Shown here: piece after piece, positions 533-17,826 of the stretch
Numbering within the stretch: position 1 is the first letter of the stretch
Layout: each line of letters starts with the position of its first letter
NCBI GenBank assembly: GCA_902793315.1
Contig: CADBCT010000003.1
Coordinates: 1 to 36,139, forward strand
Origin: an uncultured Erysipelotrichaceae bacterium
Lineage (GTDB): Bacteria > Bacillota_I > Bacilli_A > RF39 > UBA660
Length of the DNA stretch: 36,139 nt
Direction of reading: 5' to 3'
Program-made: the position numbers and the translations under genes
Notes under the pieces: generated by a model
The model's database searches: none
Told to the model about the DNA's origin: nothing
Seen by the model: the letters and a program-made list of their open reading frames with translations, nothing else

Positions 533-538
533 ACCTCC
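533..538 (-). promoter_or_regulatory. Ribosome binding site deciding a GTG start
   Basis: A GGAGGT on the minus strand lies 7 bases before the GTG at 523-525. It supports the GTG start of the repeat protein and overlaps the TAG stop of the preceding gene (538-540), which fits translational coupling. Confidence 0.75.
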
Positions 539-2244
539 TATTTTTCTAAAGCATATATTGCATATCCACCTGTTCTATCATCAGGATCTCTACTTTGTTC
601 ATCCCAAATCAAATTAATCTTATGCCATCTGTTATTTGCTGTATTTAATGGATCATACGCAAATGTCGTATCATTGCTTTCGTCATAATCAAATACTATT
701 ATAGCATGATTCCATCTTGGTGTAGCAAACGTTCCATTCTGCATTGCGGCATACACTATTTTACCTTCTTTTAAACTTTCTACTAATTTTTCTTTTGAAT
801 CTATTCCTGTATATTTTATTCCAAAATGATTTGATGCATATATTACACCTTTACCACTTGTACCTTTCATTCTCCTATTAAATTCCGAAGTGTTTTGATA
901 TAAATCATAGGCTACATCTACTGGTAAAATTTCTTTTTCTAAATATGATGTAAAAATCATAGCTAAACTAGTTGGTGAACATCCAGTTGAACCCATAGTA
1001 CTTAAACCATATTTTTTATTTGCCCACCTTTGATCTTTTTGACTATAATAAGTTGGTAAGTATTGTGTTTTTATATACTCACCTGTTTCTTCATTAATTA
1101 CAATTTTTTTATACTTAGTTCGTTTTGTGGTAGTTAATTTTTCGCATGTTGCATCATCAAAATAATATTTTTTGCCTTCTATTTCATGCATTCCACATAA
1201 TACAAATTTATCTTCAAAATAATACTCTTTTCCTTCTACTGTTTGCCAACCAGACGCTATTAAAACTTCACCGTTTTTATCTTGATACCAGCGCCCTTCT
1301 TCTTTTGTGTTTTGCCAACCCGTTTTCAATTTTCCATTTACTCTTGAAAAGAAATATACTTTTCCATTTATGGTAACAAAACCTGTTTGCATTATTCCAT
1401 TATTATTAAAATAATATTTATCCCCAGCAAGTTCTTGTAAGCCAGTTAATACTTCACCACTTGCATTTTGATACCATTTCCCCTCACTAGCATGTTGCCA
1501 ACCTGTCTTTAGCACTCCATTTACTCTTGAGAAAAAATACAATTTATTATTTATTGTTTTAAATCCACGTACTTCAATACCTTTGTCATCAAAATAATAC
1601 CTATTACCACTTATAGTTTGCCAACCTTTTACTACTTCTCCATTACTATTTTGATACCAATATCCTTCACTAGCATTTTGCCAGCCTTTTTTCAATGCTC
1701 CATTCACCCTTGAATAGAAATATAATTTATCATTTAATGTAATAAATCCTGTTTGCATTATTCCATTATTATTAAAATAATACTTTTCACCTGTGATTTC
1801 TTGTGAGCCAATCAATACTTCTCCGTCTGTCTTTTGATACCATTTTCCTTCTCCGGCATTTTGCCAACCTTTTTTCAATGCTCCATTTACTCTTGAAAAG
1901 AAGTATAGTTTATCATTTAAAGTAATAAATCCTGTTTGCATTATTCCTTTGTCATTAAAATAATATTTTTTTCCATTAATTGTTTGTAATCCTTTGACTA
2001 CTTCTCCATCTGCCTTTTGATACCATTTTCCTTCACTAGTATTTTGCCAACCTTTTTTTAAAGCATAGTTTACTCTAGAGAAAAAATATAGTTTTTTATC
2101 TATTTCTTTAAAACCTGATACTTTTTCACCATTTTCATAATAATACTTTTCACCATTTTCTGTTGACCATCCTTCTAAAGCCTGTATATTAGGCGCGAAA
2201 CAAAACATTAAGACTATTAACATAACAAGTATTTTTTTGTTCAC
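538..2244 (-). CDS. Secreted cell-wall-binding repeat protein with C39-like cysteine peptidase domain
   Basis: This 568-residue exported protein has a signal peptide (MNKKILVMLIVLMFCF...QALEG), then about five 61-residue wall-binding units (GWQN-KWYQ-GEV-KYYFND-GIMQTGF-LYFFSR), then a C-terminal peptidase_C39_2-like domain (about 395-568). The papain-fold residues are visible: Cys422 in GSTGCSPTSLAM, His513 in WNHAIIV and Asp531 in AYDPLN. The likely role is a surface cysteine peptidase or amidase held on the wall by the repeats; the substrate is unknown. The start is a GTG with AAGGAG 9 bases upstream. It comes before the paralogue at 1-525, probably in one transcript. The fifth repeat unit is degenerate (EVLIASGWQ insertion). 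A bacteriocin-processing role is unlikely because no ABC transporter domain is attached. Confidence 0.85.
   Translation of the reverse strand: MNKKILVMLIVLMFCFAPNIQALEGWSTENGEKYYYENGEKVSGFKEIDKKLYFFSRVNYALKKGWQNTSEGKWYQKADGEVVKGLQTINGKKYYFNDKGIMQTGFITLNDKLYFFSRVNGALKKGWQNAGEGKWYQKTDGEVLIGSQEITGEKYYFNNNGIMQTGFITLNDKLYFYSRVNGALKKGWQNASEGYWYQNSNGEVVKGWQTISGNRYYFDDKGIEVRGFKTINNKLYFFSRVNGVLKTGWQHASEGKWYQNASGEVLTGLQELAGDKYYFNNNGIMQTGFVTINGKVYFFSRVNGKLKTGWQNTKEEGRWYQDKNGEVLIASGWQTVEGKEYYFEDKFVLCGMHEIEGKKYYFDDATCEKLTTTKRTKYKKIVINEETGEYIKTQYLPTYYSQKDQRWANKKYGLSTMGSTGCSPTSLAMIFTSYLEKEILPVDVAYDLYQNTSEFNRRMKGTSGKGVIYASNHFGIKYTGIDSKEKLVESLKEGKIVYAAMQNGTFATPRWNHAIIVFDYDESNDTTFAYDPLNTANNRWHKINLIWDEQSRDPDDRTGGYAIYALEK
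1138..2052 (-). repeat. Tandem 183-bp coding repeat (wall-binding units)
   Basis: The GWQN codons recur at 2052, 1869, 1686, 1503 and 1320, exactly 183 bases (61 codons) apart. Four units are well conserved at DNA level and the last is degenerate. The same 183-base spacing (297 and 114) occurs in the adjacent paralogue, so units could recombine within or between the two genes. Confidence 0.85.
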
Positions 2245-2301: not shown

Positions 2302-2331
2302 AAAAAGAGATTGATGTGTCAACCTCTTTTT
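2302..2331 (-). terminator. Intrinsic terminator of the glycosyltransferase operon
   Basis: An interrupted stem (AAAAAGAG and TTGA pairing with TCAA and CTCTTTTT, loop TGTG) is followed on the minus strand by a T-rich run. It overlaps the TGA stop of the GT2-GT4 gene (2319-2321) and marks the end of that operon. Confidence 0.7.
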
Positions 2332-4631
2332 CTAAATGGTCTAGTTATTATTCTTTTAACTATTTTTAATATAATAATTATTCCTGCGATTAACGCTTTA
2401 AAAAACTCTGTAAACACAGATACAACATCTTTGCTTGTTTTCTTGAATCTTCTTAAAAATTCTATTACTATTTTTCCTTCTTTTACAGCTCCAAAAACTT
2501 CTAGCTTTGCTCTTATTTTTCTATACAATTTTTGATGTCTACTTTTTTCAGCTGTTAAATAAAATCCTAGATTTCTTTCATAATAATCATTAGTATAATT
2601 AAAATATAGTTTACTAAAAGATTCACAGGCTAGTTCATATACGCTTGTATCTACTGGTTTATATGCCTCTATTTTATTGTTTTTTATAGCACCTTCAATA
2701 ATGCTTTCAATTTTTTTTGACATTATCTCTAATGAGAACCCTTTTTCTATTCGTGCACGACAGTTTTTCTTTATGGCACCTAAATTTTTTAATACTCTTA
2801 TAGTCTCTTCTACATATTCATTTATTTCTCTGTCAAAAACTTCAGGTGAGGCATCTTTATTGTAATGCACTACTCCTCCTACTTCTGAATCAATTAATTC
2901 TGTTTGTCCTCCTACGTCAGTTGAAACTACAGGAGTAGACATTGAAAGCGATTCATAAGATGTTAGAGCCAATCCTTCTAATGAAGAACAATTTATAGTC
3001 ATATCACTTATGGCATATATTTCATCTGTTTTACTTACCATTCCCAACAATTTAAAGTTATTGTCCACTTCCTGTTTTACATTGTTCATTAAAGGGCCAT
3101 CTCCAGCTATTACAAAGTATGTATTATGATCCTTTTCATGAATTCTTTTTGCTATTTCCACAAACATAGTCGGCCTTTTTTCTTCAGATAACCTAGCAAT
3201 AAAAGTAATTATTTTTTTATTTTTAGGAATATTATATTCTTCTTTCAATTTATTGGCATCATAATTATCTGGATTAAATTTTTCATGATCAGTTCCAATA
3301 TAAACAGTTTCTACTTTTTTCTTATTAAAGTCTTCTAATAGCTGTTTTCTAGTGAACCCATTACAACAATATGTTCCATATAAATAACTATCTACATCTC
3401 TAGTGCATCTTCCAAATCCTTTTCTTGGATCAGCAAGATCTACTGAATGAATATAATCAATAAATGGAATTTCAGGATGTTTTCCCTTTAAATACGGTAT
3501 CATATAATACCCATATTCAGTATTTGATACAAATACTAAATCTACTTTTCTTGATTCAATAATGTAATTTGCAAATACTTGATAATCTATTCTATCTAAG
3601 AATGAAGACATATCATATACTTCTGCATAATCTTCAAAATCCTGTCTAATAGGATTCTTATTTGGTGTTGTTAGTAAGATTATTGAACGATATTTATTTT
3701 TTGGTAATCTTTTTACTACTTCTAAATTAAAGAAATCTGCTCCACCAATCATCATCCAAGGGAAAATAAACAACACTGTTTTTCGTTTATCTTTTTTATA
3801 ATCCGGCACTATCAAATCATAATTTTTGCATGTCGCATATGTATCTCCGTAGCGAGGAAATTGAATCGGTGTTACTATATCATTTGGAATAGTACTAGCA
3901 GTTTCTTTTACATATTTCATAGCATTCTCTTTATTTTTATTCGCACGTGATAATTCACTTTCACCAAATTTACGATACCAGAATAATGGAGCGCTTACTC
4001 TTAATGGAGTTTTGCCTGCTCTAATCAGTTTTAACCAAAGATTCCAGTCTTCATACATAGCTTTTTCTTTAATACCAAAGCATCCTACTTCCAGTAAATC
4101 TTCTTTTTTTACTAATGATGTGATGTTAATTAAGTTTTCATCTTTTTCATGTTCAATTGTCAAGTATTTTTCCCAAAGAAACTCTTGTTCACCAAAATTT
4201 ACTAGTGTCGTATATGCAAATGATGCTTCAGGATGCGTTTCAAGTGTCCAATATAGACATTCTAACATTGTAGGATCAATCAAATCATCTGCATCTAAGA
4301 AAAAAACATATTTAGTATCTTTACTAGTATGAGCAATGCCATAATCTCTAGCAATTGCTGGTCCCCCATTTTCCTTTTTAAAATACTTTATTCTATCATC
4401 CAATTTGACAATTTTTTCTACTTTTTTATTAGACTCTTCATCTTTTGAACCATCGTTTACAATTATCCATTCAAAATATGGATATGTTTGATTCATGACA
4501 GAATTGAAAGTCTCTTCTATAGTTTTTCCTCCATTATAATATGGAGTAACTATGCTTATTGTTGGTTTACAGTCATTAATAATTTCTCCATATTTTTTTA
4601 TCTTTTGTCCTGGTATTTTTTTAAAATCCAT
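2319..4631 (-). CDS. Two-domain glycosyltransferase (GT2 + GT4)
   Basis: This 770-residue fusion joins two glycosyltransferases. Residues 24-140 are a GT-A family 2 domain (VTPYYNGG at 28-35, VNDGS near 60, metal-binding DADD at 113-116). Residues about 284-640 are a GT-B family 4 domain (MMIGGADFF near 295, ARLSEEKRP near 480, AGDGP near 510, and the nucleotide-sugar EX7E pair Glu552/Glu560). The C-terminus has an amphipathic, then hydrophobic, strongly basic stretch ending RPFRKRG, probably for membrane association. It likely adds two consecutive sugars to a lipid-linked glycan on the cytoplasmic face. Start: ATG with AAAGGAGT about 6 bases upstream; it overlaps the preceding GT4 gene by 34 bases, so the two are cotranscribed and probably coupled. 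Acceptor and sugars cannot be predicted. Confidence 0.9.
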   Translation of the reverse strand: MDFKKIPGQKIKKYGEIINDCKPTISIVTPYYNGGKTIEETFNSVMNQTYPYFEWIIVNDGSKDEESNKKVEKIVKLDDRIKYFKKENGGPAIARDYGIAHTSKDTKYVFFLDADDLIDPTMLECLYWTLETHPEASFAYTTLVNFGEQEFLWEKYLTIEHEKDENLINITSLVKKEDLLEVGCFGIKEKAMYEDWNLWLKLIRAGKTPLRVSAPLFWYRKFGESELSRANKNKENAMKYVKETASTIPNDIVTPIQFPRYGDTYATCKNYDLIVPDYKKDKRKTVLFIFPWMMIGGADFFNLEVVKRLPKNKYRSIILLTTPNKNPIRQDFEDYAEVYDMSSFLDRIDYQVFANYIIESRKVDLVFVSNTEYGYYMIPYLKGKHPEIPFIDYIHSVDLADPRKGFGRCTRDVDSYLYGTYCCNGFTRKQLLEDFNKKKVETVYIGTDHEKFNPDNYDANKLKEEYNIPKNKKIITFIARLSEEKRPTMFVEIAKRIHEKDHNTYFVIAGDGPLMNNVKQEVDNNFKLLGMVSKTDEIYAISDMTINCSSLEGLALTSYESLSMSTPVVSTDVGGQTELIDSEVGGVVHYNKDASPEVFDREINEYVEETIRVLKNLGAIKKNCRARIEKGFSLEIMSKKIESIIEGAIKNNKIEAYKPVDTSVYELACESFSKLYFNYTNDYYERNLGFYLTAEKSRHQKLYRKIRAKLEVFGAVKEGKIVIEFLRRFKKTSKDVVSVFTEFFKALIAGIIIILKIVKRIITRPFRKRG

Positions 4632-5921: not shown

Positions 5922-8321
5922 TTATTTAAGTGTTAATTTATTTTTTATATTTGCTAATTTATCTATAAATTTATATCTACGACTATTTTTTATTTGATCT
6001 AATTCATATTGAAGTGAATCTATTTTAGAATCTAAAATAGTTGTAGCTGCAACTTTTGGTTCATAATAATCATTTAATATATCCATACTATTATCTTCTA
6101 GCTCTTGGAAAATTGTAGTTCTTGCAGCTGGTCTTTCCATGGATTTAATAAATGCTTCATTATATTTAACAATTTGTTTATAGGTAGTATTTTCTATTAT
6201 CAATTCTTTTTTTATTTTATTAAATAGTTTTTCTCCTTGCTTTGTTTTTATCATTATTGCTGATGTTCCTAAATTATCAAAAAAATTATTATGTTCATAA
6301 TATACACCCCAATAATCTCCTAGAATAATATCTGCTTGATTATTATCTAAACATTTGGCAGGGCAATCATAACATGAATTTCTTAAGATAAGATTTTTTA
6401 GATATAAGCCCATCATTGAATCTTCTGTGAATTGGTAACATTTGTCAATTCTATCTGATTGATATTCGATACTTGATTTATCCCAACCATTTCTTTTAGA
6501 CTTATATAAAACTTTATTAACGTTTATAGCAAATTTCTTTTCTACCTCTTTTATTCTTTTTTCAAGTAATTTGGAATTCATTACTCCATGACAAATAACA
6601 CTTACAAGAATTAGATTCTTATTTTCTTCACCTATATATGATTTTACTCCTAATACTTGACATGGTGTCCCTGAGAATAGTACTGTTTTACCTGCTTTTA
6701 AGTCTTTTCTTATTAATGGTAAAATGTTACTTATATTACTTTCAGCATATTTAGAACCATGTATTCTCTTTAATTCTTTTGATGAAGTTATTCTTACATG
6801 ATTTACTTTAGTATCAACTAATTCTGCTCCATAAACTATACCTTTATCTTTTAATATAGCATTTGCTAAATGATAAAATATTCCTCCAGATGAAGATTTT
6901 TTTATAATATCTTTTTCTTTTGATTTTGCAGCATAGCAAATCAATTTCTCTTTATCATATTTTTCTTGATTTCTGTTTCTGGCTGGACAGATCTTTCTGC
7001 ATATATCACAATGAATACATTTACTTAAATCGATTTTAGGAACTTTGAATCCTTCTTCATTCTCAACCATGGTAATAGCATTCTTAGGACAAGCATTCAT
7101 ACATGCACCACAACCAGTACATTTCTTTATACTACATACTTCTTTTTGATCTATTTCTTTTAGTTTATCATTCATTTTAGTAAAGAGGTTTGCAGATTCT
7201 TCTTTCATACTTTTCATTTTTCCATCTAAGAATTTTTTTATTTCTTTTCTATTATTATAAATATAATTAAATTTTTCTATAAGTGTATCTTTAGTAATTT
7301 CTGTTGATGGTAAGACATAGTCTTTATAGCTACCAAAAATATCTTGAGCTATACCACGAGATTTAACACTATAGCCAATTACTAGAGTTGGAATAGAACT
7401 TGAATAAGCTGCTATTGAGGCATGTGTTCTGGCTGTTATTAACATATCACACTGAGAAATTATATATTTTAATTCTTCGCAATCATATTCTCCTTCTTGT
7501 AAAAACACTCTATCTTCTTCATTATAATCTTCAGCTAAACGTCTAAGTATTTTTAAATCACTAGCTTCATCTAGGGTTACATGAGGAAGTAAGGCTATAT
7601 TATATTTGGTTTTAGATAATATATAATCAATAAATTCAATAACTGAAGAGTATTGTTCTTCTGTTTTAATAGTTAAAGGACTTAAATTAATACCTAAAAT
7701 ATTGCCTTTCTGATACCATTTATCTAATTCTACTTCTTTTTTAGGAAGTGAAAATGCAGGATCTGGTATTAATAATATTTTATCTTCTTTAATATATCTT
7801 TTTATAGCATTATAACTTATACTTTCTCTAATCATTAATAAATCATATCTATCTAAATCATTTATTAACTCTTTATCTAATATTTCATCATATAAAGAAG
7901 CTCCCCAAAGAACAATTTTCTTGTTATTATCTTTAGCTTGTCTAGTAATTGTATAAATCCATTCATTTACACCATAGCAATAATTATCTCCACCCAAATG
8001 TAGAGCAATATCTGATTCTTTTAGAGCTTTTATTACATCTCTTTCATATAATGATTCATAATTATAATAGTCAAAAGGGATTGACTTAATATGTTCAAAC
8101 TCTTTCTTTTCATTCTCTGTAAATTCTTCTTCATTTTGTTTATGATGATCTAGAAACTTTTTTATTTTTCCTTTATACATATCTTTATCATGTTCATAGT
8201 CAAAAGTTGCAGCTTTTATTTCATATTCGTCTCCTATTTGATTTAATGTGGAATCCACTAAAGCTTCACACCCTCTATTTTGTAGTGATCCGATTCCATA
8301 AATTAACATTTTTTTCTTCAT
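5922..8321 (-). CDS. Polysaccharide pyruvyl transferase - ferredoxin - FrhB-like fusion
   Basis: This 799-residue protein has three parts. Residues 1-380 match the polysaccharide pyruvyl transferase family (GSLQNRGCEA, HLGGDNYCY near 108, ARTHASIAAYSSS near 297), which puts pyruvate ketals from phosphoenolpyruvate onto glycan sugars. Residues 396-450 hold two 4Fe-4S motifs (Cys401/404/407/411 and Cys435/438/441/445, each ending CP). Residues about 460-720 match the N- and C-domains of the coenzyme F420 hydrogenase/dehydrogenase beta-subunit family (SSSGGIFYHLA, FSGTPCQ, CYDCPAKC, ILGDYWG). A coiled C-terminus carries NSRRYK (779-784). The redox part probably modifies the glycan or its precursor using flavin and ferredoxin-like electron transfer, but its reaction is unknown. 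It is the first gene of an operon with its own extended -10 promoter. The two activities often occur as separate capsule-locus genes. Confidence 0.88.
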   Translation of the reverse strand: MKKKMLIYGIGSLQNRGCEALVDSTLNQIGDEYEIKAATFDYEHDKDMYKGKIKKFLDHHKQNEEEFTENEKKEFEHIKSIPFDYYNYESLYERDVIKALKESDIALHLGGDNYCYGVNEWIYTITRQAKDNNKKIVLWGASLYDEILDKELINDLDRYDLLMIRESISYNAIKRYIKEDKILLIPDPAFSLPKKEVELDKWYQKGNILGINLSPLTIKTEEQYSSVIEFIDYILSKTKYNIALLPHVTLDEASDLKILRRLAEDYNEEDRVFLQEGEYDCEELKYIISQCDMLITARTHASIAAYSSSIPTLVIGYSVKSRGIAQDIFGSYKDYVLPSTEITKDTLIEKFNYIYNNRKEIKKFLDGKMKSMKEESANLFTKMNDKLKEIDQKEVCSIKKCTGCGACMNACPKNAITMVENEEGFKVPKIDLSKCIHCDICRKICPARNRNQEKYDKEKLICYAAKSKEKDIIKKSSSGGIFYHLANAILKDKGIVYGAELVDTKVNHVRITSSKELKRIHGSKYAESNISNILPLIRKDLKAGKTVLFSGTPCQVLGVKSYIGEENKNLILVSVICHGVMNSKLLEKRIKEVEKKFAINVNKVLYKSKRNGWDKSSIEYQSDRIDKCYQFTEDSMMGLYLKNLILRNSCYDCPAKCLDNNQADIILGDYWGVYYEHNNFFDNLGTSAIMIKTKQGEKLFNKIKKELIIENTTYKQIVKYNEAFIKSMERPAARTTIFQELEDNSMDILNDYYEPKVAATTILDSKIDSLQYELDQIKNSRRYKFIDKLANIKNKLTLK

Positions 8322-8390: not shown

Positions 8391-8416
8391 AAAGAAAAAG
8401 AGTTATTATAACTCTT
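8391..8416 (-). terminator. Intrinsic terminator after the ABC permease
   Basis: A palindromic stem (AAGAGTTAT/ATAACTCTT) overlaps the TAA stop of the permease and is followed on the minus strand by TTTCTTT. It ends the main glycopolymer transcription unit. Confidence 0.75.
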
Positions 8417-9191
8417 CTACAAAACTCTTCTCTAATTTTTTAAAAATCAAATAATTTACTGCTAATAGAACAAAGCTTAATACTGTCCAAATGCCAAATA
8501 AACGAAAGTTTGGCATTTCATGATAAAATAACACTGCTCTATAAGCCTCAACCATTACAGCCATTGGATTAACAGCCATAGCCCATTGAAATTTTGCTGG
8601 TAACATTGATGACAAATAAACTATTGGAGTTGCATAAAAACCTAATGTTAAAGCCACACTTACAAAATGATCTACATCATGTACAAATACTGTAATTGCT
8701 GATAAAAGAAAATTAATTGCTAATGTTAAAACATATTGAACGATTATTATTATTGGCAATAATAATATATGCTTAGAAAATCCAACGCCACTAAATATTA
8801 TAAATACAAACATAATTAAACATGTAATTAAGAAATTTACTAATTGTGAAGTAGTTATTGAAATAGGAATTATTTCTCTAGGAAAGTATACTTTCTTCAA
8901 AATGTTACCATTAGCCACGACACAACCTGTACCAGTCTGCACAGCAGTAGTGAAAAAAGTCCAAGGAATTAAAGCAACAATCATGAATATTGTATAGTTT
9001 TCTACATTTACTCTTAAGATATAAGGAAATACAAAAGCATAAACAGCTAACATCAACAATGGATTTAAAAAAGTCCATAATACTCCTAACCAAGAACCTT
9101 TATATTTACCTCTTATTTCCTTCTTTATGTTGGTCTTCAGCAATTCTCTATAATCATATAAATCTTTAAATACCTTCATGTATATATTCAC
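8406..9191 (-). CDS. ABC-2 type polysaccharide exporter permease
   Basis: This 261-residue integral membrane protein has about six hydrophobic segments and belongs to the ABC-2 permease family that exports O-antigen, capsule or teichoic acid (Wzm/TagG type). The amphipathic N-terminus (YDYRELLKTNIKKEIRGKYKGSWLG split around residue 25), LNPLLMLAVYAFVF and the C-terminal AYRAVLF segment are typical. With the ATPase encoded at 9646-10389 it should export a lipid-linked glycan across the membrane. The start is probably the GTG at 9189-9191, with AAAGGA close upstream; an in-frame ATG four codons later (9177-9179) is possible but lies far from that site. It starts 9 bases after the GtrA gene stop. 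Confidence 0.92.
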   Translation of the reverse strand: MNIYMKVFKDLYDYRELLKTNIKKEIRGKYKGSWLGVLWTFLNPLLMLAVYAFVFPYILRVNVENYTIFMIVALIPWTFFTTAVQTGTGCVVANGNILKKVYFPREIIPISITTSQLVNFLITCLIMFVFIIFSGVGFSKHILLLPIIIIVQYVLTLAINFLLSAITVFVHDVDHFVSVALTLGFYATPIVYLSSMLPAKFQWAMAVNPMAVMVEAYRAVLFYHEMPNFRLFGIWTVLSFVLLAVNYLIFKKLEKSFVEEL

Positions 9192-9200
9192 TTATCCTTT

Positions 9201-9599
9201 CTATCTTTCTAGAAATAGTTTTCTTGTTACAAAATTAAATACCATTACAATTCCAGTAGCTATTATTTTTACAATCAAATAATGTATTTTGACAATATCA
9301 GTACCAAACCACATAATTAGTTCTGTTAATCCTAATCCGATAACACTAAATACAATAAATAATATAAAATTACGTTTACTATCATGCTTATCATTTACTT
9401 CAAAAACGAATTTTATACTTAATATATAATTAAATATGACAGATACTGTAAAACCAATTGCAGCTGATAATAGAACACTTAATCCAAATACTTCCTTACA
9501 CAATATTAAAACTAAATAATCTATTAAAAATGCAATAGTACCTACTACTCCAAATTTCAATATTTGTTTAAACAATTTATTATTACTAATCCTGCCCAC
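9201..9599 (-). CDS. GtrA family membrane protein
   Basis: This 132-residue protein has four hydrophobic helices and the GtrA pattern (LKFGVVGTIAFLIDYLVL at the N-terminus, VIFNYILSIKFVF in the middle, FNFVTRKLFLER at the end). Family members are proposed to flip or handle polyprenyl-phosphate-linked monosaccharides such as undecaprenyl-phosphate-glucose; Rv3789 in the mycobacterial decaprenyl-phospho-arabinose pathway belongs to this family. Here it sits in one operon with a UbiA-type lipid-phosphosugar synthase and a GT-C enzyme, which suggests it serves the lipid-linked sugar made by that pair. The start is GTG with GAAGGA about 9 bases upstream. It lies between the ABC ATPase and permease genes. 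The specific substrate is an inference. Confidence 0.88.
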   Translation of the reverse strand: MGRISNNKLFKQILKFGVVGTIAFLIDYLVLILCKEVFGLSVLLSAAIGFTVSVIFNYILSIKFVFEVNDKHDSKRNFILFIVFSVIGLGLTELIMWFGTDIVKIHYLIVKIIATGIVMVFNFVTRKLFLER

Positions 9600-9645
9600 T
9601 ATATTTTTTCCTTCACTTTTAATTAATTAAATGTCTTATTTCCAT

Positions 9646-10389
9646 TTAACCACATACTTTCAAATATTCTTCCAAAACATCGTTTACTTTTCCATCTCTT
9701 CTTATTTCGCCCTTATATAACCATACTGCTCTATCACAAAATCTTTTTACCTGATCCATACTATGAGTAACTATAACGATTGTTTTTCCTGAATTTTTTA
9801 ATTCTATTAATTTATTAAAACATTTATCTTGGAAATGTTGGTCACCTACAGCCAATATTTCATCAATTAAGAGGATTTCTGCTTGAACATTAATTGCTAC
9901 TGAAAAAGCTAACCTCATATACATACCAGAAGAATATGTTCTTACTGGATTGTCAATAAAATCCCCTAATTCAGAAAACTCAATTATCTCATCAATCTTC
10001 TTATCAATTTCAGCTCGAGTTAACCCAAATATAGAAGCATTAAAATAAATGTTTTCCCTTCCAGTGAAGTCTTCGTGAAAACCTGCTCCTAATTCCAAAA
10101 GTGAAGTTAGTTTTCCGTTGGTAGTAATAGTCCCTTTATTAGGATATATAATTTTTGTCATAAGCTTTAGCAAAGTTGATTTACCACTACCATTGGTACC
10201 TATTAAGGCTACGCTTTCTCCCTTTTTAATTTCTAAATTTATATTTTTAAGCACTTCTAATATATCATTTTTTCCTTTGTTCTTCTTTGAAAAAAACAAT
10301 ATTTTTTCCTTTAATGTATGTGCTTTATCATAATATAATTTAAAACTTTTAGATACATGTGACACTTTAATTGCTATATCTTTTTCCAC
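9646..10389 (-). CDS. ABC polysaccharide exporter ATPase
   Basis: This 247-residue ATPase of the Wzt/TagH/KpsT group has a Walker A (GTNGSGKST, 64-72), an ABC signature (SSGMYMRLA, 153-161), a Walker B (ILLIDE, 172-177) and an H-loop (VTHSMDQ). It powers export of a lipid-linked glycan with the permease at 8406-9191. The C-terminal carbohydrate-binding domain of long Wzt proteins is absent, so export is probably not gated by end-cap recognition; this resembles capsule or short teichoic-acid ATPases. The start is GTG with GAGG 7 bases upstream. It has its own strong promoter at 10429-10457 besides read-through from upstream. Confidence 0.93.
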   Translation of the reverse strand: MEKDIAIKVSHVSKSFKLYYDKAHTLKEKILFFSKKNKGKNDILEVLKNINLEIKKGESVALIGTNGSGKSTLLKLMTKIIYPNKGTITTNGKLTSLLELGAGFHEDFTGRENIYFNASIFGLTRAEIDKKIDEIIEFSELGDFIDNPVRTYSSGMYMRLAFSVAINVQAEILLIDEILAVGDQHFQDKCFNKLIELKNSGKTIVIVTHSMDQVKRFCDRAVWLYKGEIRRDGKVNDVLEEYLKVCG

Positions 10390-10462: not shown

Positions 10463-11419
10463 TCATTTAGCAAATTTTTTATTAACACATCTGCAATACA
10501 ATTTAGTTAAGGTTTTATTTTTTTCAATAGTTTTTTGAAATAAATTTCTATTCCTATAATACTTATTATTTTTATAATCTGGTATTTCTTTTGACATATA
10601 TTCAAATGCTTCATCTATGAATCTCATACCAACATTGATATCTTTTTGATTTCTTTGTTGAATTGTGTAATTAGTAATCATTCTGACAGTTAATTTATTT
10701 AATTCTTCTCTATATTCTTGACTTTTAATATCATTACGAATTATTTTAATAATTTCTAAAATGTCAAAACACTTTTCATCTCTGACTGTTGTTTCACTAT
10801 TATTGCGAATATAGTAATAGTTTAAACATTCATTTACTTTACCAATTTTATTGGCATTTTTCATAGCATTTACTACAAATGGTGCATCCTCATATTTCAA
10901 ATTTTCAATGAATTTAATATCATTATCAATCAACAAATCACGTTTATATAACTTATTCCATGGAGATAAATTAATCTTTGTTAATAACTCTGGTTTATCT
11001 TTTAAAGCAGTATCTTGAAAATCATATAATTTTTCTTCGGAAATTTTGCCGTTATCATATTCCTTATAAAAATCACATATAACCATATCGCAGTTGCTAC
11101 TTTTTGCTTTCTTTAGTAATTCTTCACAAGAATTTCTAGATAAAGAATCATCACTGTCAACAAACATGATATATTCTCCTGAAGATTTATCAATACCAAA
11201 ATTTCTTGTATATCCAATACCATGATTATCGTTTTTATAATACTTGATTCTTGGGTCCTTGTATTTCTTAATAATCTTTTCAGTATTATCAGTAGATCCA
11301 TCATTAATAAGAATTATTTCCAATTCCTGCTCAGTTTGATTAATAAGTGAATCAATACATTTATTTAAGTATTTTTCAGAATTATAAATTGGAACAATTA
11401 TACTAATTTTATTTTTCAT
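10463..11419 (-). CDS. Glycosyltransferase, GT2 family
   Basis: This 318-residue GT-A enzyme has the family 2 core at 4-120: IVPIYNSEKYL, NDGSTDNTEK near 39 and the metal-binding DSDD at 88-91. The C-terminal part (WNKLYKRDLL, LKYEDAPFV) is typical of capsule and wall-polymer GT2 enzymes. It should transfer one sugar to the lipid-linked precursor in the cytoplasm; donor and acceptor are unknown. The basic C-terminus (RCVNKKFAK) may contact the membrane. It starts 16 bases after the UbiA-family gene stop, so it is in the same transcript. Confidence 0.9.
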   Translation of the reverse strand: MKNKISIIVPIYNSEKYLNKCIDSLINQTEQELEIILINDGSTDNTEKIIKKYKDPRIKYYKNDNHGIGYTRNFGIDKSSGEYIMFVDSDDSLSRNSCEELLKKAKSSNCDMVICDFYKEYDNGKISEEKLYDFQDTALKDKPELLTKINLSPWNKLYKRDLLIDNDIKFIENLKYEDAPFVVNAMKNANKIGKVNECLNYYYIRNNSETTVRDEKCFDILEIIKIIRNDIKSQEYREELNKLTVRMITNYTIQQRNQKDINVGMRFIDEAFEYMSKEIPDYKNNKYYRNRNLFQKTIEKNKTLTKLYCRCVNKKFAK

Positions 11420-11435: not shown

Positions 11436-12308
11436 TTAAATAATATAAAGTAACATAAACATTACTATTCCATATAACATAGCTGTTCCTATAAGCAGTT
11501 TATCCGATAAAATAACTTCAATTGGATCTCCATGAGAATTACCTTCAATATTTAAGCTATACAATTGAAGAATAACTATTAGTAATGGTATAGTCCAGAA
11601 TATATAATCATTTCCCACTCTATTAATTGTTGTACTATCTACACACCACAATGTATAGGACACAATTGCTAATCCTAGCATTACATACATATTTTTATCA
11701 AGGAATTCTTTATTATATAATGCTAATACTTTTCTAGACTTATTACCGTTTTTAATGATTTCGTTGCGCCTTTTTCCAAAGCCTAAATAAAAAGCTCCAA
11801 AGATAATCATTAAATATAGATATTTAGATACCTCAATATTAGTAACTACGCCTCCATACATTACTCTAAATACAAATCCAGATACTAATATCATAATATC
11901 TACAATAGGCACATTTTTTAATCCTTTACTATACATAGTATTCAATACTATATAAATTAATGGTATTATGAATACCCCAATACTTTTTTGATTCATATAT
12001 AGATATACCATTAAAAAAACTGTAATTGCTACTAGTATAATCAATACTACATAGGCTTGCTTCTTGGTAACTTTTCCACTTGCTAATGGTCGAAGCTTTT
12101 TTATTGGATGTAATTTGTCTTTTTCAATATCACTCATATCATTAATAATATAAATAACACTAGACGTACAACAAAATATGACGAAAGCTATAAATGCTAC
12201 CTTAGCTAATTCAAGATTAAAAAGATTAGCACTAAAAAATATTGGCAAAAATACTAATAAATTTTTAATCCAGTGCTTTACTCTAATCAATTTGATATAA
12301 TTTTTCAT
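11436..12308 (-). CDS. UbiA-family prenyltransferase, decaprenyl-phosphate phosphoribosyltransferase-like
   Basis: This 290-residue polytopic protein has about eight or nine hydrophobic helices and the UbiA signature NDMSDIEKD (Asn56, Asp57, Asp60, Asp64), followed by HPIKKLRPLASG. The N-terminal RVKHWIKNLLVFLPIFFS matches the subgroup of decaprenyl-phosphate phosphoribosyltransferase (Rv3806c type; RP.QW.KN in actinobacteria). That enzyme moves 5-phosphoribose from PRPP to polyprenyl phosphate, unlike quinone- or heme-pathway members. The immediate neighbour upstream is a HAD phosphatase/GT-C fusion whose TAA stop abuts this ATG, so the two are coupled. I infer a lipid-linked pentose phosphate as product, then dephosphorylation by the HAD domain. 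The RBS is GAGGTG. The substrate is inferred from subfamily resemblance only. Confidence 0.82.
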   Translation of the reverse strand: MKNYIKLIRVKHWIKNLLVFLPIFFSANLFNLELAKVAFIAFVIFCCTSSVIYIINDMSDIEKDKLHPIKKLRPLASGKVTKKQAYVVLIILVAITVFLMVYLYMNQKSIGVFIIPLIYIVLNTMYSKGLKNVPIVDIMILVSGFVFRVMYGGVVTNIEVSKYLYLMIIFGAFYLGFGKRRNEIIKNGNKSRKVLALYNKEFLDKNMYVMLGLAIVSYTLWCVDSTTINRVGNDYIFWTIPLLIVILQLYSLNIEGNSHGDPIEVILSDKLLIGTAMLYGIVMFMLLYII

Positions 12309-14570
12309 TTATTTTTTCACCTCAAGTCTCCAACTTAATTTGTATTCAAAATTGTCTTGATTATCAATTTCTACTTTAGTATAATTTATCCCCTTATCAT
12401 TTAATAAATATTGATAACCATACTCTTCATCAGCAAAATGTATCTTTAAATCTTCAATATATTTCATTTCTGCTAAATCTCTATTATTATTATGAGCTGA
12501 TATAATATTATCTTTTACCACCTTTAGAAAGAAACATAAATTTATAAATAATACTAATAAGCAAAGTACATCAAACATTATATGTAATTTCTTATATTTA
12601 ACATACTTTTTTAAATAAACACTTAATATAAACACCCCAACAATTAGGTAATAGAAATGAGGAACATATCTTGCCCACCAGCTTTCTCCTAATAATACCA
12701 TAGTTATTAAAGTAGTAATTATTGGTATTAGGACATATTTCATTTTATCTTTTTCATTCTTTATCAATATGATAAACATTGGGATAAATACAATTATTGA
12801 CAGAATAAATGATAATGCAAATAAGGGGCCAAATCCACCTATTCTAGTATCTGGAATATATAATTGTTTAACCTCTGAACTATATACTATAAATGGATAT
12901 TTAAGAGTTGGTCTATTTTGATAATACGTTGTGTTTTCTGTTTTAGAGAACATTGAATAATACCATTTTTCTAATTTACTCATTTTTGCAAAGTCTTTAG
13001 GTTGCATAGTAGTAACAATATCAACTTTATTCTTACCAATTAGTGGATATAGTGGATTTATATGATCAATTGTATTTTTAACATATGAATTAGATCCAAC
13101 AAGAAATATTGATATTACATATACTATCGTAAATAGAATTGTTAATCTTTTAAATACTTTTATATTTTTATATTTAAATAGCCAATAAAAATAAAAAGTT
13201 GCCGCAATTACCCCTGAACACATTAATCCAGTAAACTTCAAATTACAAAAAATTGTACTTATAGATATTATTGAAATCCATAGAGGCATATTAGCTTTTT
13301 CTTCTGGATCAACCATGAATAGTAATAATAACTGAATTAAGAAGCATATTCCCATAATACCATCTACATAAAATGTGAATATTTGTGTCAAAACAATTGG
13401 ATTTAATACTAGAAATATTGTAAAAACTATACTCCAATTTTTATCTAGTATTTTTCTTAAAACATTATAAGTAATAATAAGTAGCATAATACTTAAAATT
13501 ACTATCAACGCTTTCCCTGCTTCAATGCAACCAGTTAAATTATACATAACAGCAGCATAAATCCAAGAAGCTTTTGGATAGTGTTCTATCCAAATATCTA
13601 CTTTAGATTTTTTATTGATTGGAATTACCTTTGAATTATGCTTTTGAAAATCTCTAGCACTCTCATATAAAGGGTTCCACCCATTTTTTATGAAAGCGAT
13701 AGCTGTCTTATGGTAATCATTTCCATCAATTGATAAATCATATATTTTAGTATTTAAAAACGGTATGACTGTTACTATTAATAAAAATATTAGTGCTAAA
13801 ATAATACTTCTCTCTTTTTTTAAAATGTATATGATTGGAATAATTATAGCCACTATTCCAATTACTAGTAACATATTATTAATATTTAATATTTGAAACA
13901 CTGAATATAATACTAATATACATAAAAAATACATACATAGCATAAAAAACAAAGTCATTGATTTGTTTTTTAAATCAAAGTAATTTTTAGTTTTTTCTTT
14001 TCCATATGATTTAATGTCTATTTCTTCAATCTTGTTACCAGTTACTAAATATGCTTCTTTTGCATACTCAAACATTGCTCTGTCAGATTTGACTGAGTCA
14101 GAGTAAAAGGCTTTCATTTTCTTTTTAGAAACTTTTTCATATCTGCTTATTTTTTCATAATCGTGACAATTTTTAGACAAAAATTCACCAGTCTTTTTGT
14201 CTACCTTACTAGCGATTATCAAAACATTTAATTTTTTTTCTAATGGTTTTAACAAAAATTCTGGAGAAGCAGATATTATTACATCTGTTTTTTTCTTTTG
14301 ATTTAAATACCAAGGCTTAATTTTATTGTAATGAATATCCCAAAAATCTTCAATATAATCATCAATATTATTTATTCTCTTTAGAAAAGAAAAAATATAT
14401 TCTTTAAATTTAGTCTTATCAATTATTTTTAATATATATAGTATTAATCCAAATACTTGTATTGGAGCTTGTAGTAATACTTTCTTATTTCTTTTTAATG
14501 AATATTTAAAAAAATCTACCGAAGAATCTCCATCATAAATTGTTTCATCAAAATCGTATCCGTTAATCAT
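12309..14570 (-). CDS. HAD phosphatase - GT-C glycosyltransferase fusion
   Basis: This 753-residue protein joins two parts. Residues 1-195 are a HAD-IB type phosphatase: motif I DFDET (Asp6, Asp8), motif II Ser100 in IISAS, a Lys-rich motif III near 150 and motif IV SDSVKSD (Asp158, Asp163). Residues about 205-690 are a polytopic GT-C glycosyltransferase with an acidic first outer loop (IDGNDYH, Asp282/Asp285, the usual catalytic position), a large outer loop (about 500-565) and WARYVPHFYY near 640. A soluble tail (about 690-753) follows. GT-C enzymes use polyprenyl-phosphate sugars outside the membrane. The fusion suggests one protein that dephosphorylates a lipid-linked sugar phosphate inside and uses the lipid-sugar outside. 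It directly precedes the UbiA gene. RBS AAAGGAAG, ATG start. Confidence 0.82.
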   Translation of the reverse strand: MINGYDFDETIYDGDSSVDFFKYSLKRNKKVLLQAPIQVFGLILYILKIIDKTKFKEYIFSFLKRINNIDDYIEDFWDIHYNKIKPWYLNQKKKTDVIISASPEFLLKPLEKKLNVLIIASKVDKKTGEFLSKNCHDYEKISRYEKVSKKKMKAFYSDSVKSDRAMFEYAKEAYLVTGNKIEEIDIKSYGKEKTKNYFDLKNKSMTLFFMLCMYFLCILVLYSVFQILNINNMLLVIGIVAIIIPIIYILKKERSIILALIFLLIVTVIPFLNTKIYDLSIDGNDYHKTAIAFIKNGWNPLYESARDFQKHNSKVIPINKKSKVDIWIEHYPKASWIYAAVMYNLTGCIEAGKALIVILSIMLLIITYNVLRKILDKNWSIVFTIFLVLNPIVLTQIFTFYVDGIMGICFLIQLLLLFMVDPEEKANMPLWISIISISTIFCNLKFTGLMCSGVIAATFYFYWLFKYKNIKVFKRLTILFTIVYVISIFLVGSNSYVKNTIDHINPLYPLIGKNKVDIVTTMQPKDFAKMSKLEKWYYSMFSKTENTTYYQNRPTLKYPFIVYSSEVKQLYIPDTRIGGFGPLFALSFILSIIVFIPMFIILIKNEKDKMKYVLIPIITTLITMVLLGESWWARYVPHFYYLIVGVFILSVYLKKYVKYKKLHIMFDVLCLLVLFINLCFFLKVVKDNIISAHNNNRDLAEMKYIEDLKIHFADEEYGYQYLLNDKGINYTKVEIDNQDNFEYKLSWRLEVKK

Positions 14571-14592: not shown

Positions 14593-15510
14593 TTATTTTA
14601 ATAATTTACTAGTTAATTTAGGACTAATTCTAAATAATACTTTTTTTATTTTTCTATTAGTAGTATCAGTTAATAAATTATCATAGACTTTGTTTTCTTT
14701 TAATAGCTTTTTATATTCTTTGTAATCTTTTCCTTTTACTTCACATATCTTTAAAATCAAACTATTTGCAATAAAACTTTTAAATATTTTACTATCTAAT
14801 TTGCTTTTATCTATCTCTTTGATTAGATATAGATAATGATTATAAAAATCATTTACTTTTTTCTTTGTCCATTCATAATCCGGCTTATTCATTATACTAC
14901 CTTGACGGCGATAATAATTATAGCCAATATAGTTAATTGAATTAACTTTGCCAGCCTTAATTATAATTAAGGGAGTTAATCCAAAGTCTTCATGAATCAT
15001 ATTTTTAGCAAAGCTAAATTTTTCTTTTTCATAATAAGCTCTTCTAATGGCATAACACCAAACACTTTCTACAAAATGAAATTTCGATATAATTTCAAAA
15101 GCTTCTATACCATTTTTATCTTTAAAAGTAGTTTCTTTATAATCAGTTATTTCATCTTGATCTGTAACAGTTCTGACTTGGAATCTTACTAAATCAGGTT
15201 TGTTTTCTAATGATTTTGTTATTTCTTTTAATAAATCTTTATCCCAATAATCATCACTATCTAAGAATAATAGATATTCCCCAGTAGCTTTCTTTTCACC
15301 AATATTTCTTGCTTCACTTACACTAACGTGTTTACTAGTAATAACCTCTACATCATACTCTTTGGCAATTTCAATACTCTTATCAGTACATCCATCATCG
15401 ACAACAATAACTTCAAAATCTTTCATTGTTTGTTTAAAGACACTATCTAGGCATCTACCAATATATTCTTCAACATTATAAACTGGGATTATTATACTAA
15501 ATTTAGGCAT
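14593..15510 (-). CDS. Glycosyltransferase, GT2 family
   Basis: This 305-residue enzyme has the GT-A family 2 core in its first 120 residues: IIPVYNVEEYIGRCLDS, VVDDGCTD (37-44) and the metal-binding DSDD at 84-87. MIHEDFGLTPL is the usual acidic acceptor-side motif. It should add a sugar to the growing lipid-linked glycan. It is the second gene of the main unit: 9 bases after the polymerase-GT4 fusion and 22 bases before the HAD-GT-C fusion. The RBS is AGAGGTG, 5 bases from the ATG. Confidence 0.9.
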   Translation of the reverse strand: MPKFSIIIPVYNVEEYIGRCLDSVFKQTMKDFEVIVVDDGCTDKSIEIAKEYDVEVITSKHVSVSEARNIGEKKATGEYLLFLDSDDYWDKDLLKEITKSLENKPDLVRFQVRTVTDQDEITDYKETTFKDKNGIEAFEIISKFHFVESVWCYAIRRAYYEKEKFSFAKNMIHEDFGLTPLIIIKAGKVNSINYIGYNYYRRQGSIMNKPDYEWTKKKVNDFYNHYLYLIKEIDKSKLDSKIFKSFIANSLILKICEVKGKDYKEYKKLLKENKVYDNLLTDTTNRKIKKVLFRISPKLTSKLLK

Positions 15511-15519
15511 ATTACACCT

Positions 15520-17826
15520 CTATCCATTAAATATTTTCTCTAATTGTTTCATTCTTTCTACTTGTCCAGCTTCTAAATCGATTTCTTGTTTAGTATGCTT
15601 TTCTTTTAATATATTCTTCACTTCTTTTACCATTGCTTCTTGTTCTTTACTAATAACATACCCATATTGATGAATATCTACTCTATCATCACTAGTTGGG
15701 AATGTAGTAATAATATCTTTATGAAGAGTGATTGCTTCCAAATATGTTACTGGAAATCCTTCATAATCAGATGTAAGAATTATATAATCAGCCTGTTTCA
15801 TATATGGGAATGGATTAGCTTTCTTTCCCATAAATTTTACTCTTTCTTCTAGTTTATTATCTTTAACTTCTTTCTCATATTTTTTACGATCTGGTCCATC
15901 ACCAATAATCCATAAATCAACATTCTCTATTTCTTTAACCAGATTAATTTGACGTGATATTTTTTTTGCATCATCATCTAACCTTCCAACAAACATAAAC
16001 AATGTATGATTCTTGTTCTTCTTTTCTTTAATATTTTCTTTACTTTGATTGATGATTTCTTTAGTATCTATAAAATTATTAAATACTTTGCACTTTTTCT
16101 TTAAAGCAGGATACTTTTCAATAAAGCCTTCTCTATTTTCATTAGATACAAAAATAATATTCCTATATTTACCTATTTCTCTACTATTAAAGAATTGGTA
16201 AAATTCAGTATCATTCTTATATATAGTACGATAATCATTATGAACATAAAAGGCTGTATTAGTAGAAGCCATTAAAGCTAGTTTTGAACTACTATAGCTA
16301 TATGTTGCATAGCAACAACTAAAATCATAATTATGATAATTAATAACTTTAAAAAATAATTTTCTACTTACATTAATCAATTTTCTTAATACAACTATTT
16401 TATTATTACTTACTTTGCATTCTCTAACTATAGCATTAGAATTTATCTTATCTAAGAAAACACCTTTTTTCTCCTCTAAAACTATTTCCACATCATATTT
16501 TTCAGTATCAATTCTATTAACTAAGTTTAATAAAGCCTTTTCTATTCCACCTAAATCCATACTAAAAGATGCGAATAATAGTCTTTTCTTTTTACGTTTA
16601 GGAAATTCTAAGATAAGAATGATTGCAATTAAACTAACTGCTGGTGCAGTTATAATATGACCAGTAAAGAATGATAAGAAAATTATTAATAATAAACTAA
16701 TAAATAACATATAACTATCAAAATTAAGAGTCTTTTCTTTTTTTAGTACTTTCCATAATACATAGATAGTTATTATAAAGAATAATAAAAATCCAATTAC
16801 TCCATGATTATAAAAAATATCAAAGTAATCCATCTCAATCATTTTAGTAGGTTTACCATTACTCTTTAAATAGCCAATTCCAAATAATTTTTGATAAGTA
16901 TTAGCTTTATGATATAAATTTGCTTTTCGGTCTAAGAAAGTTAATCTTTGACTAAAAATAAAATGATCTACTAATTCTTCATCTTCAAATACTTCACCTA
17001 CATTATCTAGTTTTAAATAATTTAAATGAGTTTCAATATTCTTATAAAAATTAGTTTTAGGAATTATTACAATTAAAGCACTTATTCCAATTAATAGAAT
17101 AATTACTGAAGTAATAATCTTTTTATATTGTTTTTTAATAAGATAATCTTTCCATAAATATAATATAATTGCTACTATAGTTATTCCTAAAGTTAATAAT
17201 GGAGTTTTAGTACCCATCATTAGAATTACTACTAAATACATTATCCCTAAAAGAAATTTAGGAATAATACTTTTAGAAGAGAACAGTATAATAAACATAA
17301 TTGGAGTTAAGATTGAAATAATTCCACTTATCTCATTAGCTGAATTATAAAAGCCTAGAGTACCAGCTTTAGTAATTTCATAAGTATCATAACCTATTCC
17401 TAAAAGAATTGGAACAAAGATACAAATTAAATATAAAAATAAAGTAGTAAATAGAGTCATTTTACTAATATTAATTTCATCTCTAATACTATATAAAGAT
17501 AAGAATAAGACCGGAAAATAGAAAACTTTAACTAATCCCTGAAATTCAGTAATTATCCCTACCCCATTTTTATACATAATAATTCCAACAATGTATAAAA
17601 TCCCATATAATCCAATAGCTAAATATGGCAATAATAGTTTCTTTTTATAAACAAAAATTGTTGCATAACAAATAAATAACAAGAATAAGACTCTTAAAAT
17701 AATTCCAATTGTAAAATGTATCTCAAACAAATGAAGACATAATCCAGTTAATAAATCAATAATTGGACTTAATAAAATAAATATTGCAATTATAAGGCTT
17801 ATATTCTTTTTAATAAAATTAGTCAT
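15520..17826 (-). CDS. O-antigen ligase/polymerase-like membrane domain fused to GT4
   Basis: This 768-residue protein has about ten to twelve hydrophobic helices in residues 8-408, in the pattern of Wzy/WaaL-type O-antigen polymerase-ligase proteins. They are broken by a large soluble loop (about 258-337) holding SQRLTFLDRK and the conserved-looking FYNHGVIGF (His341). Residues about 414-768 form a GT4 glycosyltransferase (SMDLGGIEKALLNL, FVGRLDDDAKK, IGDGPDRKKYE, YEGFPVTYLEA). One chain thus joins an outside-facing polymerase or ligase to a cytoplasmic glycosyltransferase. It opens the main operon behind the promoter at 17860-17888; RBS AGGATGGT. Whether the membrane half polymerises repeats or attaches a finished glycan to an acceptor cannot be told from sequence. 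Confidence 0.85.
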   Translation of the reverse strand: MTNFIKKNISLIIAIFILLSPIIDLLTGLCLHLFEIHFTIGIILRVLFLLFICYATIFVYKKKLLLPYLAIGLYGILYIVGIIMYKNGVGIITEFQGLVKVFYFPVLFLSLYSIRDEINISKMTLFTTLFLYLICIFVPILLGIGYDTYEITKAGTLGFYNSANEISGIISILTPIMFIILFSSKSIIPKFLLGIMYLVVILMMGTKTPLLTLGITIVAIILYLWKDYLIKKQYKKIITSVIILLIGISALIVIIPKTNFYKNIETHLNYLKLDNVGEVFEDEELVDHFIFSQRLTFLDRKANLYHKANTYQKLFGIGYLKSNGKPTKMIEMDYFDIFYNHGVIGFLLFFIITIYVLWKVLKKEKTLNFDSYMLFISLLLIIFLSFFTGHIITAPAVSLIAIILILEFPKRKKKRLLFASFSMDLGGIEKALLNLVNRIDTEKYDVEIVLEEKKGVFLDKINSNAIVRECKVSNNKIVVLRKLINVSRKLFFKVINYHNYDFSCCYATYSYSSSKLALMASTNTAFYVHNDYRTIYKNDTEFYQFFNSREIGKYRNIIFVSNENREGFIEKYPALKKKCKVFNNFIDTKEIINQSKENIKEKKNKNHTLFMFVGRLDDDAKKISRQINLVKEIENVDLWIIGDGPDRKKYEKEVKDNKLEERVKFMGKKANPFPYMKQADYIILTSDYEGFPVTYLEAITLHKDIITTFPTSDDRVDIHQYGYVISKEQEAMVKEVKNILKEKHTKQEIDLEAGQVERMKQLEKIFNG

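Follow-up and report, generated by a model that had tools for sequence, protein, structure and literature searches.

A HAD-IB phosphatase joined to a GT-C glycosyltransferase in uncultured gut Bacillota, a predicted bifunctional protein of lipid-linked pentofuranose transfer

The window analysed here, a stretch of 36,139 nucleotides from an uncultured Erysipelotrichaceae bacterium, encodes in one open frame a HAD-IB phosphatase domain followed by a polytopic GT-C glycosyltransferase, and the gene lies beside one for a UbiA-type enzyme. We consider it probable that this fusion contributes two activities to a glycosylation pathway based on polyprenyl-phosphate-pentofuranose, in which the 5'-phosphatase is carried on the transferase instead of on UbiA. 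Such a protein would unite steps so far described as separate proteins, namely the trimming of the ribose lipid and the attachment of the sugar outside the cell. Pathways of this type and the joining of HAD to UbiA are already known; what is new is the HAD/GT-C domain arrangement, and literature searches largely confined to open papers turned up neither a HAD/GT-C nor a HAD/GtrA fusion. The value of the observation lies in repeated, partner-switching fusions that point to physical assembly, and in a compact, directly testable protein for trimming, flipping and transfer.

Domains, catalytic residues and junction of the fusion protein

The gene and the parts of its product are located as follows:
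12309..14570 (-): HAD-IB phosphatase / GT-C glycosyltransferase fusion, 753 aa, one open frame without internal stops
14013..14570 (-): HAD-IB domain, residues 1-186 (Pfam HAD, fold matches, invariant catalytic residues)
13965..14012 (-): linker, residues 187-202 (pLDDT below 50 at 191-198; alignment with the relative G040)
12312..13964 (-): GT-C domain, residues 203-753 (fold matches; 41 homologues aligned)
13710..13727 (-): DGNDYH, residues 282-287, first outer loop with the presumed catalytic Asp282 (invariant in 41/41)
12666..12671 (-): R634-Y635 (WARY), presumed contact to the donor phosphate/sugar (invariant in 41/41)

The first-pass annotation had described a HAD-IB domain with DFDET and SDSVKSD motifs ahead of a polytopic GT-C domain with an acidic outer loop (DGNDYH), and the single frame, the motifs, the structural model and the fold matches all bear this out. 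Pfam HAD matches residues 5-168 (E 1.7e-10, above the gathering threshold), with DFDET at 6-10, SASPEF at 100-105 and SDSVKSD at 157-163, and the domain is a relative of the HAD-IB subclass that scores under the NCBIfam curated cut-offs (TIGR01490, 42.7 bits against 98.3; TIGR01488, 26.2 against 45). The second half matched no Pfam family, and direct PDB sequence searches with the whole fusion and with the HAD profile gave zero matches. Structure prediction of both halves, suggested at the outset as a check, was more informative: the AlphaFold2 model, built on a 62-row alignment of relatives, has a mean pLDDT of 94.1 and a pTM of 0.80, the disordered segment 191-198 being the only one below 50. 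In structure comparisons residues 1-190 resemble HAD-IB phosphatases (3fvv, Z 17.5; several SerB, Z about 13), and residues 261-753 resemble GT-C enzymes, with matches spanning about 350-380 residues (ArnT 5ezm, Z 14.2 over 373 residues; Pmt4, Z 14.0; AftA, Z 12.6). As modelled, the second half has a polytopic GT-C fold with an acidic residue in its first outer loop.

Both active sites are intact. The HAD residues D6, D8, T10, S100, K140, D158 and D163 are invariant in all 27 relatives aligned, as the original reading called for, and D282, G283, N284, Y286, H287, W632, A633, R634 and Y635 of the GT-C half are invariant in all 41. Within a clade that contains only fused proteins, the HAD part has a dN/dS of 0.06-0.17 and the GT-C part one of 0.15-0.20, and therefore both halves are maintained. 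A dead HAD is ruled out by the residue conservation together with these ratios. In the GT-C enzyme ORF12 of Citrobacter youngae, activity is lost in D31A, E34A, H106A and R349A, and little is left in Y35A and Y350A (Kelly et al. 2024, PMC11127046). Compared by motif, the DxxxY and RY patterns of the window GT-C are alike in kind to those of ORF12, a GT136 enzyme, with R634-Y635 as the motif counterpart of R349-Y350, whereas members of the window GT-C family vary at the E34 position, where they have Asp, Ser, Ala or Thr.

The HAD/GT-C junction in the window is a true join. A goat-ileum MAG from a separate assembly (L130, JAFRCC010000031.1) has the same fused frame, with 99% identity over residues 7-753, and HAD-GT-C frames of 753-770 aa are present in more distant species; an assembly artefact or a chance frame is ruled out by these findings. 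No relative was found in the viral contigs searched. The nearest relative, G040, has 82% DNA identity to the window over both flanks, and its gene order begins with a fusion of HAD to another GT-C, GTC2 (695 aa); next comes an independent gene of 562 aa for the window-type GT-C, which has an ATG of its own, and UbiA follows. The window lacks GTC2, its HAD continues without a frame break into the GT-C, and AAA stands where G040 has that ATG. The tail of the window HAD is like the tails of standalone HADs and unlike that of G040, so that the join may have come about by loss of a stop codon, by deletion or by recombination. An internal start giving a separate GT-C was judged unlikely, since the G040-type start codon has been replaced and the next ATG, at residue 205, has no visible ribosome-binding site.

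Neighbouring genes and the predicted pathway

The genes around the fusion that bear on its function are these:
11436..12308 (-): predicted UbiA-family polyprenyl-phosphate phosphoribosyltransferase, adjoining the fusion gene (homology to Rv3806c)
9201..9599 (-): GtrA-family protein, candidate flippase for a lipid-linked pentose (PF04138, E 9.7e-26)
10463..11419 (-): GT2 glycosyltransferase of the same polysaccharide cluster (PF00535, E 1.8e-40)
14593..15510 (-): GT2 glycosyltransferase of the same polysaccharide cluster (PF00535, E 1.6e-33)
8406..10389 (-): ABC exporter for polysaccharide, with its permease at 8406-9191 and its ATPase at 9646-10389 (PF01061, PF00005, TagH/Wzt-like)

The adjoining UbiA-type enzyme had been taken as the source of a lipid-linked sugar phosphate, and its relationships agree with a phosphoribosyl-polyprenol type. 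Its profile matches the structure of Mycobacterium tuberculosis Rv3806c, a decaprenyl-phosphate phosphoribosyltransferase (8j8j, E 2.4e-46), its NF008978 score (E 6e-59) is 199.5 bits and thus slightly under the cut-off of 207, and the residues N56, D57, D60, D64, R180 and E183 (NDxxDxxxD and R..E) are invariant and spaced as in the C. youngae ORF15 residues tested in Kelly et al. 2024, PMC11127046. By Rv3806c homology and signature residues we class the gene at 11436-12308 as a UbiA of the decaprenyl-phosphate-phosphoribosyltransferase type. The window encodes together the three components of a three-component pentofuranose system, a UbiA synthase, a phosphatase and a GT-C. In most relatives GT-C, UbiA and HAD are separate adjacent genes, typically in that order, and this three-function neighbourhood is conserved in about 30 loci.

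For C. youngae O1 the pathway and the role of the GT-C are established biochemically: UbiA makes polyprenyl-P-ribose-5-P from PRPP in the cytoplasm, HAD removes the 5'-phosphate, a flippase follows, and the GT-C then acts outside (Kelly et al. 2024, PMC11127046). In the window, UbiA would move 5-phosphoribose from PRPP onto polyprenyl phosphate at the cytoplasmic face, and the N-terminal HAD, itself cytoplasmic, would strip the 5'-phosphate to leave polyprenyl-phospho-ribofuranose. A flippase, probably the GtrA protein of the cluster, would turn the lipid over, and the GT-C would add the pentofuranose outside the membrane to the polysaccharide that the neighbouring genes produce, with Asp282 as the base and Arg634/Tyr635 and loop residues holding the donor.

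Helices 203-227, 234-252 and 256-275 of the model precede the Asp282 loop, and a basic KKER loop connects the last two of them, an arrangement that would place HAD in the cytoplasm and Asp282 outside. Given active sites on opposite membrane faces, the fusion would co-localise the two steps, with no direct handover of substrate from site to site. The first-pass proposal that one chain ties processing to use is upheld as to the fusion itself, and needs amending in that the two sites face opposite ways with a flipping step between them. Covalent joining would keep trimming beside the final transferase, and it may bring the synthase, the flippase and the transferase together in one place.

The GtrA gene at 9201-9599 sits between the exporter permease and ATPase genes. 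A plasmid of Lactococcus has, in order, genes for a polytopic hypothetical protein, a decaprenyl-phosphate phosphoribosyltransferase, a HAD-IB phosphatase (E 7e-70 against the profile of the window HAD), and GtrA. With GtrA adjoining UbiA and HAD on this plasmid and fused to the same HAD in relatives of the window, the GtrA protein is a candidate and probably the flippase.

The distribution of the genes links HAD to UbiA. Among 39 genomes of the genus HAD is present in 14 and UbiA in 14, and both are found in 13 (Fisher p 2e-8, uncorrected for relatedness); the HAD of the one HAD-only genome (G050) is near a contig end, and the UbiA gene of the one UbiA-only genome (G010) is split across two contigs. 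We also collected 79 loci by homology to the fusion, of which 31 have HAD, 30 of them together with UbiA, the exception being a split contig. Of the 79 loci, 42 have a member of the window GT-C family with neither UbiA nor HAD nearby, so that the whole GT-C family need not use pentofuranose donors. In the taxonomic family at large this HAD is found in 72 of 386 genomes; about 75 copies were counted, of which 12 belong to frames 688-1085 aa long and 15, with frames of 319-365 aa, have the length of a HAD-GtrA fusion, these sizes being counted by hand with the content checked for some only.

We regard it as improbable that HAD trims another lipid-linked or soluble phosphate, such as a PgpC-like lipid phosphate or a sugar phosphate before UbiA, the link to the GT-C then serving another purpose. 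The HAD-IB subclass does include SerB, histidinol-phosphatase and PgpC types, and the HAD family is also present in many genomes without UbiA, where standalone relatives occur; yet within the genus gains and losses of HAD coincide with those of UbiA, a 5'-phosphatase is required for the UbiA product and no other candidate for one was seen beside UbiA in the cluster, and the window genome (70% complete) has one HAD of this family. From this context, we predict a phosphoribosyl-phosphatase activity for a HAD whose sequence profile did not match the PRK08238-type HAD.

As for the sugar, no DprE1-type ALO domain (PF04030) was found in the window genome, at 70% completeness, or in 13 relatives, with a positive control in Corynebacterium glutamicum; the donor is therefore probably polyprenyl-phospho-ribofuranose, and ribofuranose is the likeliest sugar. 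It would be different if the donor were epimerised before use, so that arabinofuranose or xylofuranose was transferred. HAD-UbiA systems elsewhere lend this some plausibility, as the HAD-UbiA proteins on Rhizobium and Ruegeria plasmids adjoin GtrA and DprE1/DprE2-like genes and Citrobacter has ORF13-type epimerases, but in addition to the ALO result a scan of cluster proteins brought up no recognisable epimerase, and we hold transfer of an epimerised sugar to be unlikely.

Recurrence of the fusion and exchange of partners

The fused state arose repeatedly, a point missed by the first-pass annotation, as was the joining of the same HAD to several GT-C types and to GtrA. A tree of 50 GT-C proteins requires at least four changes of the fused state, all forced by supported branches, and the four fused groups are the window with L130; L133, L134 and L136; L155; and L132, whose placement is unsure because of a long branch. 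The same HAD is fused to GTC2 in L131, L137, L143 and L159, to GTC3 in G001 and G368, and to GTC4 in G694 (1080 aa) and G468 (686 aa). The GTC2 model is weaker (pLDDT 78), and its polytopic half still resembles GT-C enzymes (ALG12, Z 14.2; AftA, Z 10.7). UbiA adjoins every HAD fusion to the window GT-C family that was found, in agreement with the linkage first supposed. Two outliers involve other partners: in G368 the HAD-GTC3 fusion and UbiA are on different contigs, and in G701 a divergent HAD protein of 788 aa is present while the 17 kb read contain no UbiA.

A neutral origin, in which two working enzymes of one operon were joined by the loss of a stop or start codon without functional advantage, is a serious contender, if not the reading we favour. 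Most relatives manage the same task with unfused genes, and HAD is joined to whichever gene adjoins it, be it one of several GT-C types or GtrA, which is what one would expect were the choice of partner of little consequence. Set against this are the number of recurrences with the window GT-C family alone, the nature of the common partners, all of them membrane proteins from one and the same pathway and of transferase or flippase type, and the persistence of the fused state over the diverged clade of L133, L134 and L136, with both halves under purifying selection.

Returning to the favoured reading, a fusion with a role in the pathway, we note that fusions of pathway enzymes indicate physical partnership, and that those of HAD link the predicted phosphoribosyl-lipid phosphatase to the donor-using transferase and, in relatives, to the presumed flippase. 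They support a putative membrane complex for lipid-linked pentofuranoses, an idea that in corynebacteria rests on two-hybrid data: in C. glutamicum such tests have UbiA binding the GT-Cs AftA, AftB and AftC, and the authors suggest a channelling-like complex. By analogy, the HAD fusions would be a covalent form of this UbiA/GT-C contact, and the HAD-GtrA fusions point to GtrA proteins as polyprenyl-phospho-ribose partners. More tentatively still, it can be speculated that HAD is a roaming scaffold module in these gut Bacillota, joined by turns to GtrA or to polytopic GT-C-like proteins of four families or more, while elsewhere a different HAD is carried on UbiA, and that synthase, phosphatase, flippase and transferase form one trans-membrane assembly that takes polyprenyl-phospho-pentofuranose from PRPP to glycan.

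Several further architectures were observed. HAD-GtrA fusions, apparently unreported, are located at L165:7741-8706(-), L189:8413-9501(-), L193:9857-10822(+), L097:8748-9752(-) and L099:5104-6057(+); in the first three of these loci UbiA is nearby. HAD-GTC4 fusions lie beside UbiA at L236:4868 (-), of 1080 aa, and L240:6265 (-), of 686 aa, and the GTC4 of the 1080-aa form has an extra C-terminal soluble region. One genome has paired HAD-membrane-protein fusions (695 and 681 aa; L159:8558-12738 (+) and L242) adjoining UbiA. At L093:3463-5607 (+) a DUF6020 membrane protein is fused to GtrA (714 aa), adjoining UbiA, GTC3 and HAD genes.

Comparison with known pentofuranose systems

The three-component system of C. 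youngae O1/O2 consists of the PRP-UbiA ORF15, the MATE flippase ORF14 and the GT-C ORF12 of family GT136 (Kelly et al. 2024, PMC11127046). Like the window, it encodes a UbiA phosphoribosyltransferase, a HAD phosphatase and a GT-C together, with similar signature residues in UbiA and GT-C. It differs in that its HAD is on UbiA, whereas the window HAD is on the GT-C and seems to come from a different HAD-IB subgroup, and in having a MATE protein where the window has GtrA and a Gram-positive-type ABC-transporter cluster; the likeness of the window GT-C to GT136 is one of motif. The mycobacterial DPA pathway (Rv3806c, Rv3807c, DprE1/E2, Rv3789, AftA/Emb) shares with the window a homologous UbiA, an AftA-like GT-C fold and a GtrA-type transporter. 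All its members are separate proteins, in contrast to the fused HAD/GT-C of the window, where DprE1 was not found, and the mycobacterial phosphatase Rv3807c is unrelated to HAD.

In the PRK08238 (NF006088) HAD-UbiA proteins a HAD phosphatase is likewise covalently joined to an enzyme of its own pathway, in their case the synthase and in the window the GT-C. The first-pass remark that HAD domains are known attached to UbiA is correct for ORF15 and PRK08238, but the window HAD seems to belong to a different HAD-IB subgroup. Its profile found no match among the HAD domains of PRK08238-type HAD-UbiA proteins in an HMM search, and a profile-profile comparison with that HAD showed modest similarity (probability 90%, E 2e-6), as much as a shared superfamily would give. 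From these profiles, the window HAD therefore seems either to represent another HAD-IB subgroup that was taken up for the same task or to be a very remote relation of the HAD of HAD-UbiA proteins. The gPRT-PRP ribofuranosyltransferases also have a HAD fused to a transferase, and this HAD strips the 5'-phosphate of the transferred phosphoribose; gPRT is however cytoplasmic and uses PRPP directly, whereas the partner in the window is a polytopic GT-C that would use a lipid donor. The findings extend the three-component pentofuranose pathway to uncultured gut Bacillota.

Other multidomain proteins are encoded on the minus strand of the window. The gene at 15520-17826 (-) specifies a 768-aa protein with an O-antigen ligase/polymerase-like membrane domain and a GT4 glycosyltransferase, conserved across the genus, and the one at 5922-8321 (-) a 799-aa protein with polysaccharide pyruvyl transferase, 4Fe-4S ferredoxin and FrhB-type domains. 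A 770-aa protein at 2319-4631 (-) combines GT2 and GT4 glycosyltransferase domains, and the product of 538-2244 (-) has choline-binding repeats and a C39-like peptidase domain, which suggests phosphocholine-bearing surface polymers.
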